A DNA stretch of 64,000 nucleotides from Cystobacter fuscus (lineage in GTDB: Bacteria; Myxococcota; Myxococcia; Myxococcales; Myxococcaceae), in NCBI RefSeq assembly GCF_002305875.1, contig NZ_CP022098.1:434001-498000 (forward strand). Reading direction: 5' to 3'. Position numbers and translations under genes: made by a program. Shown here piece after piece: positions 16,129 to 55,435 of the stretch. Within the stretch, counting starts at the first letter, position 1; every line of letters starts with the position of its first letter. A model generated the notes under the pieces. That model was given only the letters and a program-made list of their open reading frames with translations, was not told where the DNA came from and did not search any database.

Positions 16129-16280
16129 CTTTGCGGTAGGCACGACACTTGGCAGGTTGCTCTCCGGGCAAGGCGCTGGGGAGGCCCTTGGCAAATAGGC
16201 CCCAAGTACTTGGTCCGCTCCAGCGGAGTGCTGTATGTCCGTATCCTACAGCGCCCATGGGCAAGGCAGTCCACTGCTTC

Positions 16281-16327
16281 GCACCTTGCGTACGTCAACC
16301 CTTGATGTTACATCAAGTGCAAGGTGC
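16281..16327. promoter_or_regulatory. Nested palindromes upstream of the toxin-antitoxin genes
   Basis: An inner inverted repeat CTTGATG/CATCAAG (16301-16307 and 16311-16317, 3-base centre) is enclosed by an outer perfect 9-base inverted repeat GCACCTTGC/GCAAGGTGC (16281-16289 and 16319-16327). The inner palindrome ends 26 bases before the toxin GTG. It is a likely operator for the antitoxin helix-turn-helix, and the whole could also fold in RNA. Confidence 0.6.
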
Positions 16328-16343
16328 TGACAGGAGGGCGGGG

Positions 16344-16619
16344 GTGAATCGGCTGAACCGGAACGAAGCGATGAAGCTGGTTCAGCGCTGCTTGAAGGAA
16401 GGACAGGTGTCCTTCTCACGCCACGCTCTTGAGGAGTTGGACGCAGACGACATGACCACGCAGGACGCGATCAACGTCCTTCGTGGCGGTCGCATTGAGA
16501 CGGAGGCCGAGTGGGAGCGAGGTAGTTGGCGCTATCGCGTGTCCACTCCGCGATACGTCGTGGTGGTGGCGTTTCGACCCGAGCTGGACATGGTGGTCGT
16601 GACCGCTTGGCGGAGGTAG
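16344..16619 (+). CDS. DUF4258-type toxin of a type II toxin-antitoxin pair
   Basis: This 91-residue protein begins with GTG at 16344 after a strong AGGAGGG. The pattern FSRHALEELDADDMTTQDAINVLRGG, then WRYRVSTPRYVVVVAF and VVVTAW, is that of DUF4258 proteins, small RelE/MqsR-like folds thought to act as mRNA interferases. The next gene encodes an MqsA-like zinc/HTH antitoxin 32 bases downstream. The toxin-first order is the one seen in mqsRA. The predicted role is translation inhibition under stress when the antitoxin is degraded. It is probably repressed through the palindromes at 16281-16327. Confidence 0.85.
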   Translation: MNRLNRNEAMKLVQRCLKEGQVSFSRHALEELDADDMTTQDAINVLRGGRIETEAEWERGSWRYRVSTPRYVVVVAFRPELDMVVVTAWRR

Positions 16620-16651
16620 GTGCCCCCATCCATAGGAAAGGACGAAAGGCA

Positions 16652-17149
16652 ATGGAGTGCCTGAACTGCGGCGGGAAGATGGAGACGCGCCGGGAGAACC
16701 ACCGATACACCGAGTCTGGCCTGGATAACGTGACGCTGGTGGGGGTGGAAGTTCGCCGCTGCGCGACCTGCGGAGAATGGGAGCTGGTGTTGCCGCGCGT
16801 GGAGGCACTGCACCGCAGTTTGGCGCTGACGTTGGTGAGGAAGCGGGCCCGGTTGACCGCCAAGGAGGTCCGTTTTCTGCGAAAGTATCTGGGGTTCTCT
16901 GGAGAAGATTTCGCGCGCCGGATGCGCGTGGCGCCGGAGACCGTGTCGAGGTGGGAGACGGGCAAGCAGGACATGGGCTGGACCGCAGAGATGGTTCTGC
17001 GTCTCATGGTGGTGCATGAGGAGCGGATGACCGACTACCACCTGGCGGAACTGGAAGAGGTGGATGTGGAGAAGCGCCAGTCTGAGTTGATGGCATTTCA
17101 GTCGGTCCAAACGCATTGGGAGCCGGCCGATTTGGGCGCGCAGGTTTGA
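16652..17149 (+). CDS. MqsA-family antitoxin (zinc finger plus HTH)
   Basis: This is a 165-residue DNA-binding antitoxin. The N-terminal zinc site uses CLNC at 3-6 and a second CATC about 30 residues later. The C-terminal XRE-type helix-turn-helix reads LGFSGEDFARRMRVAPETVSRWETG. In this family the zinc domain binds the toxin and the HTH represses the operon. The protein extends about 40 residues beyond the HTH (AELEEVDVEKRQSEL), longer than E. coli MqsA. AGGAAAGGA precedes the ATG. It converges on the large kinase gene, with a hairpin at 17173-17188 between them. Confidence 0.9.
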   Translation: MECLNCGGKMETRRENHRYTESGLDNVTLVGVEVRRCATCGEWELVLPRVEALHRSLALTLVRKRARLTAKEVRFLRKYLGFSGEDFARRMRVAPETVSRWETGKQDMGWTAEMVLRLMVVHEERMTDYHLAELEEVDVEKRQSELMAFQSVQTHWEPADLGAQV

Positions 17150-35140: not shown

Positions 35141-35290
35141 GTGGACATCGAGGTCCAGCACGAACTGGGACGCGTGCTGGAGTGGACCAACGTGGAGTTC
35201 GCGGTTGTGAGGACGCCCGTGCAGGAGGGACGTGCCTCCATTGACCCTCCAGGGGCTCATCTCTATGGTCCTCACTGGGAGGAGGCGTGA
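35141..35290 (+). CDS. Possible small ORF translationally coupled to the AlbA_2 gene
   Basis: A 49-codon frame from GTG at 35141 (AAGGG 4 bases ahead) ends with TGA at 35288-35290. That stop shares its last base with the ATG of the next gene (TGATG). The sequence (VQHELGRVLEWTNVEFAVVR) is acidic and not obviously a shadow, but I recognise no family. It could be the tail of a decayed gene, a leader peptide or chance. In-frame GTGs at 35045 and 35048 allow a longer version. Confidence 0.3.
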   Translation: MDIEVQHELGRVLEWTNVEFAVVRTPVQEGRASIDPPGAHLYGPHWEEA

Positions 35291-36477
35291 TGCTGCGGGT
35301 CGAGGAGCTGGAGCGGTTGCTGGTGGACCTGGAGTCCCACCGGGTCGAGCGCAAGCAGTCGCTGAGTGACCCGGAGAAGATTCGTCAGGCCATCTGCGCC
35401 TTCGCCAATGACCTGCCCGCAACGGGTCTACCCGGCTATCTCTTCGTGGGGGTCGACGATGCTGGCGTGCCGACGGGCAAGCCCATCACCGACCAGAATC
35501 TCCTGACGCTGGCGGACATGCGCTCGGATGGAAACATCCTCCCGCCACCCCGGATGAATGTCGAGAAGGTCGTCTTTCGTGGAGCCTCCGTGGCCGTGGT
35601 CGAGGTGTTCCCGGCGGCGGCGCCTCCGGTTCGGTTCAAGGGCCAGGTCTGGGTGAGAGTGGGGCCACGCCGGGCGACCGCCACCGCGGATGAGGAGCGG
35701 GTTCTGTCCGAGCGGAGCATCGCGAATGCACGGACGTTCGACCAGCGGGCCTGTCCAGGTGCGCGGCTCGATGACCTGGCGATCGACTCCATCCTCAACG
35801 ACTACCTTCCGAGAGCCGTGGCCCGGAGTGTGCTCGCCGAGAATCACAGATCCGTGGAAGAGAAGCTGGCGGCCCTGCGGCTCTTCGATCTTCGCCGGGG
35901 AGAGCCCACCTACGCCGCCATTCTGCTCTTTGGGAAGAACCCGCTGGAGTTCGTCCCGGGCGCGTATATCCAGTTCGTCCGCTTCAACGGGGATACCCAG
36001 GTCGATCCCGTGCAGGATCAGAAGGAGCTGAAGGGCAACCTCTTCACGACCTTGATCCAACTCGACACGTTGCTGCCCCTCCAGGTGCGAACGGCACGGG
36101 TCCAGGGGCCGCGTCTGGTCGCGGAGGAACGCTCCGACTATCCGATCATCGCCGTCAGGGAGTTGGCCCTCAACGCATTGCTTCACCGCAACTATGAGCA
36201 CACCAGCGCGCCCGTACGTCTCAACTGGTTCGCGAGCAAGGTGGAGATCCACAGTCCTGGCGGACTTTATGGGCAGGTGACGCCGCAGAACTTCCGCAGC
36301 GTGAGTGACTACCGCAACCCGGTACTGGGCGAGGCCATGAAGGTCCTGGGGTATGTGGAACGTTTTGGTGTGGGGATCGCGCGTGCGGAGGCCGCATTGG
36401 CTGGTAATGGCAACCCTCCCGCCGAGTTCGTCATCGAGCCGACTCACATGCTGGTGACGCTCCGGAGCGCATCGTGA
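35290..36477 (+). CDS. AlbA_2 (Schlafen-like) plus HATPase_c_4 protein
   Basis: From the ATG at 35290 the protein has 395 residues (396 from the GTG at 35287). The ATG has GGGAGGAGG 4 bases ahead. The N terminus (about 10-140) has the AlbA_2/divergent AAA_4 pattern: ERKQSLSDPEKIRQAICAFA, LFVGVDDAGVPTG, VWVRVGPRRATA. The C-terminal half reads AVRELALNALLHRNYEH and NWFASKVEIHSPGGLYGQV, as in the GHKL-like HATPase_c_4 region of RecG-like ATP-dependent helicase-named proteins. Such proteins appear in transcription regulation and anti-phage systems with Schlafen-type nucleic-acid binding. The next gene, a ParA-like ATPase, overlaps its stop (GTGA), so the two form a module. The function is unassigned. 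Confidence 0.9.
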   Translation: MLRVEELERLLVDLESHRVERKQSLSDPEKIRQAICAFANDLPATGLPGYLFVGVDDAGVPTGKPITDQNLLTLADMRSDGNILPPPRMNVEKVVFRGASVAVVEVFPAAAPPVRFKGQVWVRVGPRRATATADEERVLSERSIANARTFDQRACPGARLDDLAIDSILNDYLPRAVARSVLAENHRSVEEKLAALRLFDLRRGEPTYAAILLFGKNPLEFVPGAYIQFVRFNGDTQVDPVQDQKELKGNLFTTLIQLDTLLPLQVRTARVQGPRLVAEERSDYPIIAVRELALNALLHRNYEHTSAPVRLNWFASKVEIHSPGGLYGQVTPQNFRSVSDYRNPVLGEAMKVLGYVERFGVGIARAEAALAGNGNPPAEFVIEPTHMLVTLRSAS

Positions 36478-37460
36478 AGACGATTGCCTTCGTCAGTGGC
36501 ACGGGCGGCGCGGGCAAGACGAGTCTGGTCTATCATCTGGCGCATATGCTGCCACGTCTGGGTTATCCGACGCTGGCGGTGGATCTGGATCCCCTCGCGA
36601 CATTGTCCTCCCTGCTTCTTGGCGACAAACGTCTGGAAGAGATGTGGGATGAGGGGACTCATACGGTCCTTTCGAGCCTCGCTCCACTGATGGATGGCCA
36701 GGAGGACATCGGAAGACCCAATCCCTTCGTCGTCACGGAGTCTCTCTGGGGCCTCGCTGGGGAGCCCGCCCTCTGGAGTCTGGATGGACCCTTGGCGGAG
36801 GCTCGGTTCGAGTGTCACTCGGGTGAGCGGTCCGCGTTCTCGCGACTTTCCGCCTTCCATCGGGTCGTGCAGCGGGCCGGCCAGGAGACGAAGAGCGCGG
36901 TGGCGCTCCTCGATCTGGGCAGTGGCTTGGGCTCCATCAACCAGACCGCGCTTCTCGCCGCGGACTTCCTCGTCTTCCCGGTGGCGGCCGATACGTTCTC
37001 ATTGCACGGCCTCAAGGTCCTTGGTCCATTTATCAGACAGTGGCGTGAGGAGTGGCGACACCTCCGCCAGCGTGTCGGGAATTCCTCGGCTGAATTGCCT
37101 GAGGGACGCATGGCTCCCGTGGGGTATGTGGCGCTTCGGCTGAACTTCTTCCAGGGGCGTCGCACTCGGTTCCAGGCGCAATGGATGAACCAGATTCCCG
37201 CTGTCTACGCGACGGAGGTTCTCGGCGTGAAGGAGACGGAGATACCTCGGGATGACCATGACGAGAGCTGTCTCGCGCTCCTGCGCAATTACGGCAGCTT
37301 GATGTCCATGGCGCAGGAGGCACGAAAGCCCATGTTCGACCTGACGCCCGCGGACGGTGCCGTCGGCAGCTACGCTCCTCTCGTCCACGAGTGTTTCCAG
37401 GATTTCGAGGGATTGGCGACGTTGCTCGTCATGCAGTGTGGGGTGGAGAAACCAACGTAA
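36474..37460 (+). CDS. ParA/AAA_31-type ATPase lacking the signature lysine
   Basis: This 328-residue soluble P-loop ATPase starts with GTG at 36474, overlapping the AlbA_2 stop. The P-loop reads SGTGGAGKTS at 8-17. Lys15 is present, but the deviant-Walker signature lysine of KGGxGKT proteins is Thr10. Walker B-like regions AVDLDPLATL and LLDLGSGLGSINQTAL fit the ParA/AAA_31 fold, as does VFPVAADTFSLHGLKVLGP. Proteins of this type partition DNA or position complexes by ATP-dependent DNA binding. Loss of the intermolecular lysine suggests altered dimer-activated hydrolysis. No ParB or parS is nearby. The coupling to an AlbA_2 protein argues for a defence or regulatory role rather than segregation. 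Confidence 0.9.
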   Translation: MKTIAFVSGTGGAGKTSLVYHLAHMLPRLGYPTLAVDLDPLATLSSLLLGDKRLEEMWDEGTHTVLSSLAPLMDGQEDIGRPNPFVVTESLWGLAGEPALWSLDGPLAEARFECHSGERSAFSRLSAFHRVVQRAGQETKSAVALLDLGSGLGSINQTALLAADFLVFPVAADTFSLHGLKVLGPFIRQWREEWRHLRQRVGNSSAELPEGRMAPVGYVALRLNFFQGRRTRFQAQWMNQIPAVYATEVLGVKETEIPRDDHDESCLALLRNYGSLMSMAQEARKPMFDLTPADGAVGSYAPLVHECFQDFEGLATLLVMQCGVEKPT

Positions 37461-37559
37461 GAGGATGTCCGTTCGTCATTCCGAGGAGGAGACGCACGTA
37501 GAGGCAGTGAAAGCGCGGCGGTGGCGAGGTGTTCGAGCTCGGGACGAACTTCGGGACAC

Positions 37560-37712
37560 ACCGAGTGGGATGGCAATGAGGATGGCGTCGTGGATGCCCG
37601 GCGCACCCACGAGCGCGATGCCCAGGGACGGCTCGTGCACGAGGAGTACTCGGGGACGCCGGGGCTGGACGACGGCCCCGTGCGCCGCGACTTCAAGTAC
37701 GACTGTGATTGA
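37560..37712 (+). pseudogene. 3' fragment of a myxobacterial repeat-containing lipoprotein gene
   Basis: A frame ending at 37712 reads EWDGNEDGVVDARR, then GRLVHEEYSGTPGLDDGPV. This resembles the C terminus of secreted myxobacterial proteins with YD-like and GDGVxD repeats. There is no upstream signal, start or N-terminal part between 37461 and 37560, where the sequence is uninformative. I read it as a remnant left between the ParA-like gene and the ADYC lipoprotein gene. Confidence 0.45.
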
Positions 37713-53291: not shown

Positions 53292-54032
53292 TCAGCGCAG
53301 GAATGCGCGGGTCATCGCGGCGTATTCACCGGAGTCCTGCTGCATGCGTTGGAGTAGAATCTGCGCCTCTGCGGCTTCGGGGGCGCCGAGCCTGACGAGG
53401 CTTCGGAGTGCTTTCACATGGCTCAGGTGCTTTCTCCGTTGCTCGGCCAGTTCCTCCCGACGGAGCCCCAGGGTACGAATCGTCGTCTCTCCCCGCTTGT
53501 TGCCCCCCACGGCGTAGGGGACTTCTTGCCGGAAGGAGATGAAGGTTTCGGGGTCGTCCGCCGCAGGATCGAGCAGCAGGGGGTCTTCCGCGGACACATT
53601 GTCCTTGTGGCTTCGAGCCCTTCGTCTGGGCGTCTTCAAGGGGAACAAGTTCCTCTTGAAGTGCTGATTGCAGAGCGTGCAGGAAAGGAAGAGGTTCGTC
53701 CACTCGTAGGCGAGCCAGTAATAGCCGGGTCTACCGAGTGGCTCCTTCTCCTTCTGCCGCCATCCCGCCTTGGGGCGGAAGTGTTCGACGTCTCCGTAGG
53801 AGATGTGGGCGAAGCTCGATTCACAGAAAGCGCACTTGAGGTGCTGTGCTTTCCGGAGCGCCGCCTTGACGGTCTCATGCCCATAGATACTCGAGTCGAA
53901 CTCGAACGACTTCTTGCCGTTCTCGTAGCTCCGGGGCGCGCGTGAATATGCCGCCCTCATTGCATGCAGGGCGCGCGCTCCTTTCGTTCGAAGGACTTCG
54001 GGCGGCTCGGCTGGCTTGCGGATGCGGATCAC
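53292..54032 (-). CDS. ptuB: HNH endonuclease PtuB of a Septu defence system
   Basis: This is a 246-residue HNH-type nuclease. GTG at 54032 overlaps the PtuA stop (GTGA), which decides the start. The zinc/HNH site is Cys67, Cys70, DVEHFRPK at 81-88 (His84), Asn113, Cys118 and Cys121 (SCTLCNQHFKRN). This layout matches the retron/Septu HNH family. In Septu systems the nuclease acts with the PtuA ATPase to cut nucleic acid after sensing phage replication. No reverse transcriptase or retron RNA is adjacent, so this is a stand-alone Septu. The rest of the protein is basic and helical. Confidence 0.93.
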   Translation of the reverse strand: MIRIRKPAEPPEVLRTKGARALHAMRAAYSRAPRSYENGKKSFEFDSSIYGHETVKAALRKAQHLKCAFCESSFAHISYGDVEHFRPKAGWRQKEKEPLGRPGYYWLAYEWTNLFLSCTLCNQHFKRNLFPLKTPRRRARSHKDNVSAEDPLLLDPAADDPETFISFRQEVPYAVGGNKRGETTIRTLGLRREELAEQRRKHLSHVKALRSLVRLGAPEAAEAQILLQRMQQDSGEYAAMTRAFLR

Positions 54033-55435
54033 TTCCGGCCATCCTTCAGTCGCTCTGCGGCGCGTTGGATGAGTTCGAGGGCTTCGCGCTCGGTCTTCGT
54101 CTCGCCCGCGGGCAGAGGACCGATCATGGACTCCAACTCGTTCAGTCTGGCTTTGTCCTTCTGGGTCAGACGTGGCTTGGAGAGGAGCGCGGTCCGCTCC
54201 TTGAGGAGTTCCTCGAGCTGGGGCGGCCGGGCCGTCTCCAGTCCGAACAGGTCGCTCGTGAGGATCTGGTCCACCCGCCAACCCCGGATGGATTCCACGT
54301 CGTTGTCGATGACGACGTGGTCGCCCTCTCGTCTCAGGACCACGATGTTCGCATCCGTGGCACTCTGAACGACGAGCGGGCTGTGCGCGGTCACGATGAA
54401 CTGGGTCTGAGGGAAGCGCTCGGTCAAGTAGCAGATGAGTTGTCGCTGCCAGGTCGGATGAAGGTGGAGATCGATTTCATCCACGAGGACCACCGCCGGT
54501 TCAGCGAGCGGGTTGGGGCTCTCGGGGTATCGCTCGAACAGACGGCTCGCGAGGTCCACCATCCAGGCCACGAGCGTCCGGTATCCCAGACTCAGGCTCC
54601 GCATTGGGACCCATCCAAAGGGGGTCTTTATCTCCACCCTGGCTGCCGGGTTGTTCTTGTCAGGAGTCGCGAAGCGGAGGTCGCTTACCTCGGGGAGAAT
54701 TCCGATGAGGAGTTGTTTGATGCGATCACGCTTCTTGGCAGCTCCATCTTGCGTGAGGGATGCCTTGCTGGCTGCATAGTCAGCTTGCAGAAGCCATTCT
54801 TCCGCATTGCGTAATGGCACATCCTCGAAGAAGAGGCTGTCACTGGGTTGGGTCTCTTGGGGGACAGACAATGAGCCAGCACCCATTCGGCGTGTTGCTC
54901 CATAGCCGTAACATGCCAGATTCAGGAAGGGTTCTTGGATTGATCTTGCGGACTGTATCTCGTCTGAATTGATTTTATACCATATTCGTTTTTGATGTTC
55001 ATCCCTGTTTTGGGGCGATGTCAGAGTTCCAGCCCTGACGTTGGCTGAAAAATAGGCACCGGCTGACTCTTGGCGAGCCATTGTCCAAGACAACTGGTTG
55101 CGCTGTACGAATCCCTTTGCTGTGTAGACGTCTGTCCGTTCGGTTTGTTTTTCGTGGTCGTACACAGTGGCATTGGACAAAGTGGGTTCAAGAATGGTGA
55201 GGGCCTGCAGCAGGGTCGTCTTGCCCATGCCGTTGTTGCCGAGGATCACCGTCCACCTCGCCGGACGTCCCTGCTCATCGGAGAGCCGCAGGGTTTGCAT
55301 GGGTCCGAAGCAGCGCACGTTCTCAAGGGTCAACGAAAGGAAGTACACGGGCAGAGGCTTCGAGGGGGCCTGTTTGCGCGCGCCCGCTCGTACCCTCTTG
55401 GCCTGCTGTGCTCTTCCCCGGCTTTTCGTGGCCAT
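54029..55435 (-). CDS. ptuA: AAA ATPase PtuA of a Septu defence system
   Basis: This is a 468-residue ABC-type SMC/RecF-like ATPase. Walker A is ILGNNGMGKTT at about 64-74. A signature-type region (RSLSLGYRTLVAWMVDLAS), Walker B VVLVDEIDLHLHP and the H-loop FIVTAHSPLVVQ follow. The N terminus is very basic (SRGRAQQAKRVRAGARKQ). With PtuB it makes up the two-gene Septu anti-phage system, where the ATPase senses nucleotide or DNA state and licenses the HNH. A long helical insertion lies between the P-loop and the signature. The ATG at 55435 has weak upstream purines. The middle region, about 54700-55050, is lower in G+C than its surroundings, consistent with acquisition. Confidence 0.94.
   Translation of the reverse strand: MATKSRGRAQQAKRVRAGARKQAPSKPLPVYFLSLTLENVRCFGPMQTLRLSDEQGRPARWTVILGNNGMGKTTLLQALTILEPTLSNATVYDHEKQTERTDVYTAKGFVQRNQLSWTMARQESAGAYFSANVRAGTLTSPQNRDEHQKRIWYKINSDEIQSARSIQEPFLNLACYGYGATRRMGAGSLSVPQETQPSDSLFFEDVPLRNAEEWLLQADYAASKASLTQDGAAKKRDRIKQLLIGILPEVSDLRFATPDKNNPAARVEIKTPFGWVPMRSLSLGYRTLVAWMVDLASRLFERYPESPNPLAEPAVVLVDEIDLHLHPTWQRQLICYLTERFPQTQFIVTAHSPLVVQSATDANIVVLRREGDHVVIDNDVESIRGWRVDQILTSDLFGLETARPPQLEELLKERTALLSKPRLTQKDKARLNELESMIGPLPAGETKTEREALELIQRAAERLKDGRK

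Follow-up and report, generated by a model that had tools for sequence, protein, structure and literature searches.

Why would a gene for a ParA-like ATPase be joined to a gene for a Schlafen-type protein, with no ParB seen beside it? ParA-family ATPases serve the segregation and positioning of DNA and of other cargo, and two genes of Cystobacter fuscus, in a 64,000-nucleotide stretch of its 12.35 Mb single-contig genome (NZ_CP022098.1, positions 434,001 to 498,000; hereafter the window), raise the question of what else such an ATPase might do. We think it probable, though well short of certain, that the pair is a two-gene immune module of the abortive-infection type, in which the ATPase gates a Schlafen-family effector, and that it belongs to a clan of such modules with interchangeable effectors. 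The pair has the following features (aa, amino acids).

35290..36477, plus strand: AlbA_2/Schlafen-type gene, the presumed effector (395 aa, ATG start; assigned by Pfam and a structure model)
36474..37460, plus strand: ParA-like (MinD/ParA class) ATPase gene, the presumed sensor or switch (328 aa, GTG start)
36474..36477, plus strand: GTGA stop/start overlap of the two genes, from the coordinates of the open reading frames (ORFs)
35332..35673, plus strand: SLFN_AlbA_2 domain, aa 15-128 (Pfam, E 5.7e-17)
36208..36462, plus strand: HATPase_c_4 (GHKL-type) domain, aa 307-391, C-terminal in the AlbA_2 protein (Pfam, E 2.1e-15)
36495..36521, plus strand: P-loop SGTGGAGKT, aa 8-16 of ParA, with the T10 codon (36501-36503) at the position of the signature lysine and K15 kept

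Both frames are open on the plus strand, and the AlbA_2 gene could alternatively start at a GTG one codon before its ATG. The first-pass annotation, made from the letters alone, had reported that the two genes overlap by GTGA and that the P-loop, GTGGAGKT, keeps Lys15 and has Thr10 in place of the signature lysine; the overlap is present at 36474-36477 with both ORFs open, and the P-loop reads as described in the ParA sequence of the window. The overlap suggests that translation of the two genes may be coupled. The SLFN_AlbA_2 match scored 62.8 bits and passes the Pfam gathering cut-off of 25.3, and the ParA-like protein matched AAA_31 (E 7.4e-13; 49.2 bits, cut-off 27) and CbiA (E 8.5e-11). 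A second and diverged AlbA_2-ParA pair lies about 0.67 Mb away in this genome (locus L059, C1:1139113-1141265), and its ParA P-loop is the canonical NNKGGVGKT.

Conservation of the pairing was examined at several depths. AlbA_2 and ParA genes lay side by side in three further genomes (G001, G047 and G012) of 59 searched. A scan of contigs with a ParA profile gave at least 49 loci; among the matches listed, AlbA_2 was directly upstream in 14 of the 15 ParA loci above 360 bits, the sole one without it being a Frankia locus (L073), and the other 34, lower-scoring loci showed no AlbA_2 match in the stretch available. The 14 paired loci came from Omnitrophota, cyanobacteria, several Pseudomonadota, Streptomyces, Gemmatimonadota and Desulfobulbus. 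We also surveyed the window's own phylum (195 genomes) and samples from three further phyla, those of a nostocalean cyanobacterium (386 genomes), a Streptomyces (396) and a Burkholderiaceae genome (398), with a profile (A4) built from AlbA_2-class ParA proteins and a cut-off of E 1e-60 for cyanobacteria and 1e-40 for the other phyla. In one survey batch 30 of 38 places were retrieved and classified, and the scores of two unretrieved places were 484 and 291 bits. The 75 ParA loci classified in these surveys had AlbA_2 (55), SIR2 (10), RelA/SpoT (4), HEPN (1) or PIN (1) as partner, with no partner recognised at four, shares that are not natural frequencies because the profile was made from the AlbA_2 class and the cut-offs were unequal. 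AlbA_2 was the partner in every classified locus of at least 290 bits.

Four of these 55 AlbA_2-ParA pairs were themselves in the profile (the window and the genomes of L067, L070 and L077). A 4-base overlap was possible in 53 of the 55, and in 46 of them a single frame of the AlbA_2 gene covered 330 or more profile positions. Pairwise distances among the AlbA_2 proteins correlated with those among the ParA proteins (r 0.81, n=46, with none of 2000 permutations as high), which shows that the two travel together and does not imply physical contact. Because the two families recur in the same order across several phyla, the pair is more than a chance arrangement. The first-pass annotation had named a pairing confined to close relatives as a refutation; the pairing was found in four phyla and is not so restricted. 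Its further suggestion, a candidate module not yet described, also stands, in that the conserved pair is named as a system in no library searched: in PADLOC (database of 2023) no named two-gene system matched both proteins, and neither protein passed the cut-off of any NCBIfam model. A word search of the PMC literature, which largely leaves out preprints and subscription journals and which other names could escape, found no ParA-coupled Schlafen, SIR2 or RelA/SpoT module.

Structure models agree with the assignments. The ParA model (predicted local distance difference test score, pLDDT, of 90) was closest among PDB entries to 3PG5, the protein DIP2308 (Z 28.4, 275 residues aligned, root-mean-square deviation (rmsd) 2.5), followed by Soj/ParA structures at Z 25-27, so that by profile (AAA_31) and by fold (the Soj match) the protein belongs to the ParA/MinD (SIMIBI) family. 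The AlbA_2 model (pLDDT 83, predicted template modelling score 0.61) was closest to 3LMM, the protein DIP2311 (Z 21.5, 355 aligned), and the rmsd of 12.4 indicates that the domains are shifted. Residues 1-147 matched the tRNase domain of SAMD9 (9o0d, Z 9.9, 137 aligned, rmsd 3.4), 7fex (Z 9.2) and 5yd0 (Z 8.8), with SLFN11, SLFN5, SLFN13 and SLFN14 at Z about 9; a Schlafen/SAMD9 fold is present in the predicted N-terminus. Residues 217-395 matched GHKL domains of histidine kinases at Z about 8, a weak match near the level of a common arrangement. Three carboxylates of the AlbA_2 protein lie in the N-terminal domain.

35332..35334, plus strand: Glu15, first carboxylate, invariant (13 of 13)
35347..35349, plus strand: Glu20, second carboxylate, invariant (13 of 13)
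35458..35460, plus strand: Asp57, probable third carboxylate (D in 11 of 13, N in 2 of 13)

Their spacings of 5 and 37 residues compare with 5 and 38 in SLFN13, a correspondence made by spacing and not by superposition; the triad of SLFN13 is given as E205/E210/D248 in PMC5862951. These data suggest that the AlbA_2 protein probably cuts tRNA or RNA.

Searches of plasmid, phage and viral-contig sequences added more distant ParA relatives, and 93 loci with a combined score above 130 were taken as the clan, a set that contains some contigs fetched twice (L116/L145, L117/L142, L114/L172 and L115/L168). AlbA_2 was upstream in 21 of the 93. Downstream partners were SIR2_2 (29 loci), RelA_SpoT (8), RiboL-PSP-HEPN (1) and a family of 220 aa (3), and 31 loci had no recognised partner, several of them owing to a contig end. 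A -4 overlap joined the genes in 21 of the 29 SIR2 loci and 5 of the 8 RelA_SpoT loci, and Pfam verified the partner domains on eight SIR2, two RelA_SpoT, two HEPN and one PIN_12 example. In a tree of the ParA proteins (87 distinct proteins, the window's included, minus those of 270 aa or less; FastTree local support), the four partner classes formed separate clades: AlbA_2 (support 0.965, with L073, which has no AlbA_2, inside), SIR2 (0.999, including L141 and L154, which are truncated by the end of the contig), RelSpo (1.0) and the 220-aa partner (1.0). The members of the last partner family are as follows.

L179:6072-6716, L190:6062-6730 and L193:6020-6691: 220-aa partner family of ParA relatives

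These three had no Pfam or PADLOC match. The single NCBIfam match, of L193, was weak and below the cut-off, and L190, the one member compared with PDB sequences, reached E 0.63 at best. By eye the family had looked cyclase-like, an identity that Pfam, PADLOC, NCBIfam and the PDB sequence search did not return, and we dropped it. In the Salmonella phage ST160 (L125, 4989-6062) a lone ParA relative stands two genes after the c2 repressor gene in the same orientation. It might be positioned like an accessory lysogeny gene, a place behind c2 reminiscent of that of rexAB.

The clan ATPase is thus coupled to toxic-looking enzymes of at least five families, across phyla and partly nested in BREX operons. 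In the AlbA_2 class, locus L078 has the BREX operon order BrxC, AlbA_2, ParA, PglXI, BrxHI, and L171 the order PglX, AlbA_2, ParA, PglZ, BrxL, with the ParA stop overlapping the PglZ start. Elsewhere an HmaC/DUF499 gene (Pfam HEPN_Swt1 and DUF499) lies 138 bp 3' of the pair (L061), DrmA and DrmB of DISARM begin 1.6 kb 3' of it (L062), GajB of Gabija lies about 1.2 kb away (L075), a C5 methyltransferase gene is on the opposite strand (L102), and an Orf5/type IV-like gene is about 5 kb off (L077). As a check on such neighbours, 20 flank ORFs, one of them with a later start, were hand-picked from 134 around 20 AlbA_2-ParA loci and run through PADLOC at 1e-15, as were, in addition, three ORFs of L060, the locus of the congener G001. 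Among the 20, 12 had clear defence matches, 1 was marginal (L075:3318-5432, PDC-M33A, 8.5e-16) and 7 had none. In G001 a prokaryotic viperin gene follows the pair in convergent orientation (L060:10012-10989, minus strand, PADLOC E 4.6e-99). A role in defence would fit several of these contexts, namely BREX, Hma, DISARM, Gabija and viperin.

The conserved gene order, the 4-base overlap, the correlated divergence, the folds, the Schlafen-spaced carboxylates and the nesting of some pairs in BREX operons are what the sequences contribute to the case for an immune module, and from them we infer the defence role and the gating of the effector by the ATPase. In such a module the ParA/MinD-class ATPase would restrain or license the Schlafen-family effector, and an infection signal, for example a nucleotide state or the loss of free nucleoid DNA, would release it; alternatively, the trigger may be inhibition of a host restriction system, as in PARIS. 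The freed effector would cleave tRNA or RNA, and translation would stop. We are evenly divided on the broader proposal that the clan represents a class of bacterial immunity that is widespread and not yet described, with a ParA/MinD-type ATPase as the generic switch for swappable suicide effectors (putatively Schlafen RNase, SIR2 NADase, RelA/SpoT synthetase, and HEPN and PIN RNases). In this proposal the switch may respond to the occupancy of nucleoid DNA or to the ATP state, and the window lineage would carry a natural variant of it that has no canonical ATP-sandwich lysine. If true, this would give bacterial immunity a new sensor class and open up the question of how infection is sensed by an ATPase that positions DNA, and the Schlafens of prokaryotes, which are related to human SLFN and SAMD9, would gain an ATPase partner.

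Several results weigh against an immune role. The only PADLOC match of the ParA protein was PDC-M28B at E 0.015, and its NCBIfam matches were all below the model cut-offs. Nine of the 55 surveyed AlbA_2 genes were not full length in one frame. At many AlbA_2-ParA loci the neighbourhood has no defence gene. The seven hand-picked flank ORFs without a PADLOC match at 1e-15 comprise six at L070, L071, L072 (two) and L074 (two) and one at L061 (10410-12014), and the loci L308-L313 had no obvious defence gene by eye. The pairs occur in defence operons, and we claim no enrichment there, the ORFs having been hand-picked. Of the 20 cyanobacterial pairs surveyed, 8 have uvrA just 5' of them on the same strand, which could suggest a role in repair or stress, and a related C-terminal family, PF22168, is named 'Transcriptional regulator DIP2311-like' in Pfam. 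Finally, dN/dS (the ratio of nonsynonymous to synonymous substitution rates) between the window and G001, a single genome pair, was about 0.35-0.38 for ParA versus 0.06-0.09 for AlbA_2, ParA being the less constrained of the two; two flanking genes gave 0.10-0.27.

The first-pass annotation had pointed to the missing lysine and expected dimer-triggered hydrolysis to differ for that reason. Position 10 of the clan alignment is K in all 20 other AlbA_2-class ParA proteins (L073 included) and in all 63 of the rest, 83 of 83 together, and T10 occurs only in the window ParA and in G001. The window protein thus has no deviant Walker A with the signature lysine, and, because the loss is confined to this species and G001, it is private to them and not a trait of the module. 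The window ParA also differs at 24 of 89 near-invariant positions of its class, the altered ones including N8, N9, K10, Q41, N43, P150, N151 and R157, whereas ten other members differ at 0 to 16 of 89-96; K15, T16, D37, D39 and D147 are kept. The ATPase pocket has been remodelled in the window lineage, and ATP-driven dimerisation is therefore probably altered or lost there. The lineage offers a naturally occurring experiment on the function of the signature lysine. Other P-loop changes turned up in the survey, as NNKAGVGKT, NNKGRVGKT and NNKERVGKT in three cyanobacterial ParA proteins and as KGGVGTTS in a proteobacterial one, so that alteration of the P-loop recurs and loss of the lysine was observed only in the window lineage. 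Natural substitutions of this kind occur at the loci L254, L267, L269 and L290, where the ParA partner is conserved in other respects.

These changes raise the possibility, compatible with other readings of the module in general, that the module is decaying in this species and that its ParA is a non-functional remnant. The 24 altered positions, many in the nucleotide pocket and switches, the ParA dN/dS of about 0.36, and the P-loop changes and broken AlbA_2 genes of other lineages all point that way. Nonetheless, both frames are open in two species with the overlap retained, the five nucleotide-site residues listed above are kept, and AlbA_2 is strongly constrained; we regard decay as doubtful, if the most serious of the alternatives.

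A rather less likely reading is that the pair is an addiction (toxin-antitoxin) module of mobile elements, with AlbA_2, SIR2 or RelSpo as toxin, ParA as antitoxin and phage defence incidental. The toxSAS, HEPN and PIN proteins are known toxin families of such modules. A two-gene layout with one toxic-looking enzyme, the occurrence of relatives in plasmid, phage and viral-contig sequences, and the partner domains shared with these toxin families would all suit an addiction module, but the ATPase, about 330 aa long, has kept its nucleotide site complete in all but a few relatives, and the nesting in BREX operons suits defence better.

We consider it improbable that the pair is regulatory or linked to DNA repair, with the AlbA_2-GHKL protein binding nucleic acid as a regulator and acting with ParA, for example together with UvrA. 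The directly adjacent uvrA genes, only 28-42 bp from the pair in L067, L069 and L102, and the regulator name of PF22168 argue for it. However, the uvrA link was seen only in cyanobacteria, with none in the survey loci of the window's own phylum or in ten wider loci, these being the loci searched beyond the cyanobacteria; a regulatory role would also leave the SIR2, RelSpo, HEPN and PIN partners of the same clan unexplained, and the AlbA_2 carboxylates are conserved.

That the pair is a DNA segregation cassette with AlbA_2 replacing ParB, as the ParA/Soj fold might suggest, is very improbable and a partition role unsupported, given that the partner is enzyme-like and switches class between relatives, that a ParA-ParB pair stands apart from the SIR2-type module on the Vibrio ponticus plasmid that carries both, and that the window has no parS-like site (best match to a parS consensus 4 mismatches in 16 and none within 3). 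No ParB is among the immediate neighbours of the pair (kinase and ADYC proteins), a ParB model not having been run on every gene of the window.

Returning to the immune module, its nearest working model, by analogy, would be PARIS, also two genes, for an ATPase and an RNA-cutting effector (AriA and the Toprim tRNase AriB), the latter predicted in our pair. PARIS is described as blocking phage through tRNA cleavage (PMC12409363) and as recruited to BREX loci (PMC12839542). It differs in its protein families, an ABC ATPase of the OLD family for AriA and a Toprim nuclease for AriB, whereas Pfam finds in our pair a ParA-class ATPase of the ParA/MinD type and a Schlafen-fold protein with AlbA_2 and HATPase_c_4 domains. 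PMC12839542 also describes BREX accessories that combine a Schlafen RNase with a minimal histidine kinase and a winged helix-turn-helix, near BREX. The window protein shares the AlbA_2 plus GHKL-type layout and, in some pairs, the BREX neighbourhood, but it terminates behind the GHKL domain, and its gene is coupled to that of ParA; in the main text of that paper ParA, SIR2, MinD and Soj occur zero times as whole words.

The best solved structures for the two partners, DIP2308 and DIP2311, come from one bacterium, Corynebacterium diphtheriae; their locus tags are three apart, from which we do not deduce adjacency. Both were structural-genomics targets, and DIP2311 is listed as of function unknown in PMC8780604. 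Soj/ParA of ParABS shares the ATPase fold, and the relatives share with it the KGGVGKT deviant Walker A with the signature lysine, but the window ParA is about 70 aa longer and its class is partnered with enzymes, with no ParB or parS found adjoining. The only PADLOC matches of the AlbA_2 protein were three profiles related to prokaryotic Argonautes (pAgo; best at aa 140-366, E 1e-20), and AlbA_2 is reported in pAgo operons (PMC6299218); no Argonaute gene was seen beside the pair in the window. The toxSAS, SIR2 and HEPN effector systems use the same effector domain families as the partners of the ParA relatives and differ in that the gating partner in the clan is a ParA-class ATPase.

As to the site itself, Pfam identifies the immediate neighbours of the pair as a kinase/STAND protein and an ADYC protein. 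The GC content at third codon positions is 0.81 and 0.75 in the pair versus 0.93 in these two flanking genes, and the cargo at the site differs between congeners.

37474..37562, no strand: breakpoint region, 87 bp in the window versus about 5.8 kb, including the viperin gene, in G001

In the congener G003 the same flanks enclose 14.7 kb of different cargo. G002, G010 and G030 are uninformative about an empty site because the two window flanks are far apart there. The lower third-position GC and the differing cargo would fit a horizontal gain of the pair.

Near one AlbA_2-ParA pair and an HmaC-like fragment, a gene for a DUF4062 protein overlaps one for a HATPase_c_4 protein (L305:4733-6336, minus strand); DUF4062 proteins are described as antiphage NADases in PMC13174449. 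Elsewhere in the window a Septu system lies at 53292-55435 on the minus strand, with overlapping genes for PtuB (PADLOC E 1.1e-103) and PtuA (E 3.6e-174), and a probable toxin-antitoxin pair lies at 16257-17149 on the plus strand, a DUF4258 protein followed by a helix-turn-helix protein with a sub-cut-off match to MqsA.

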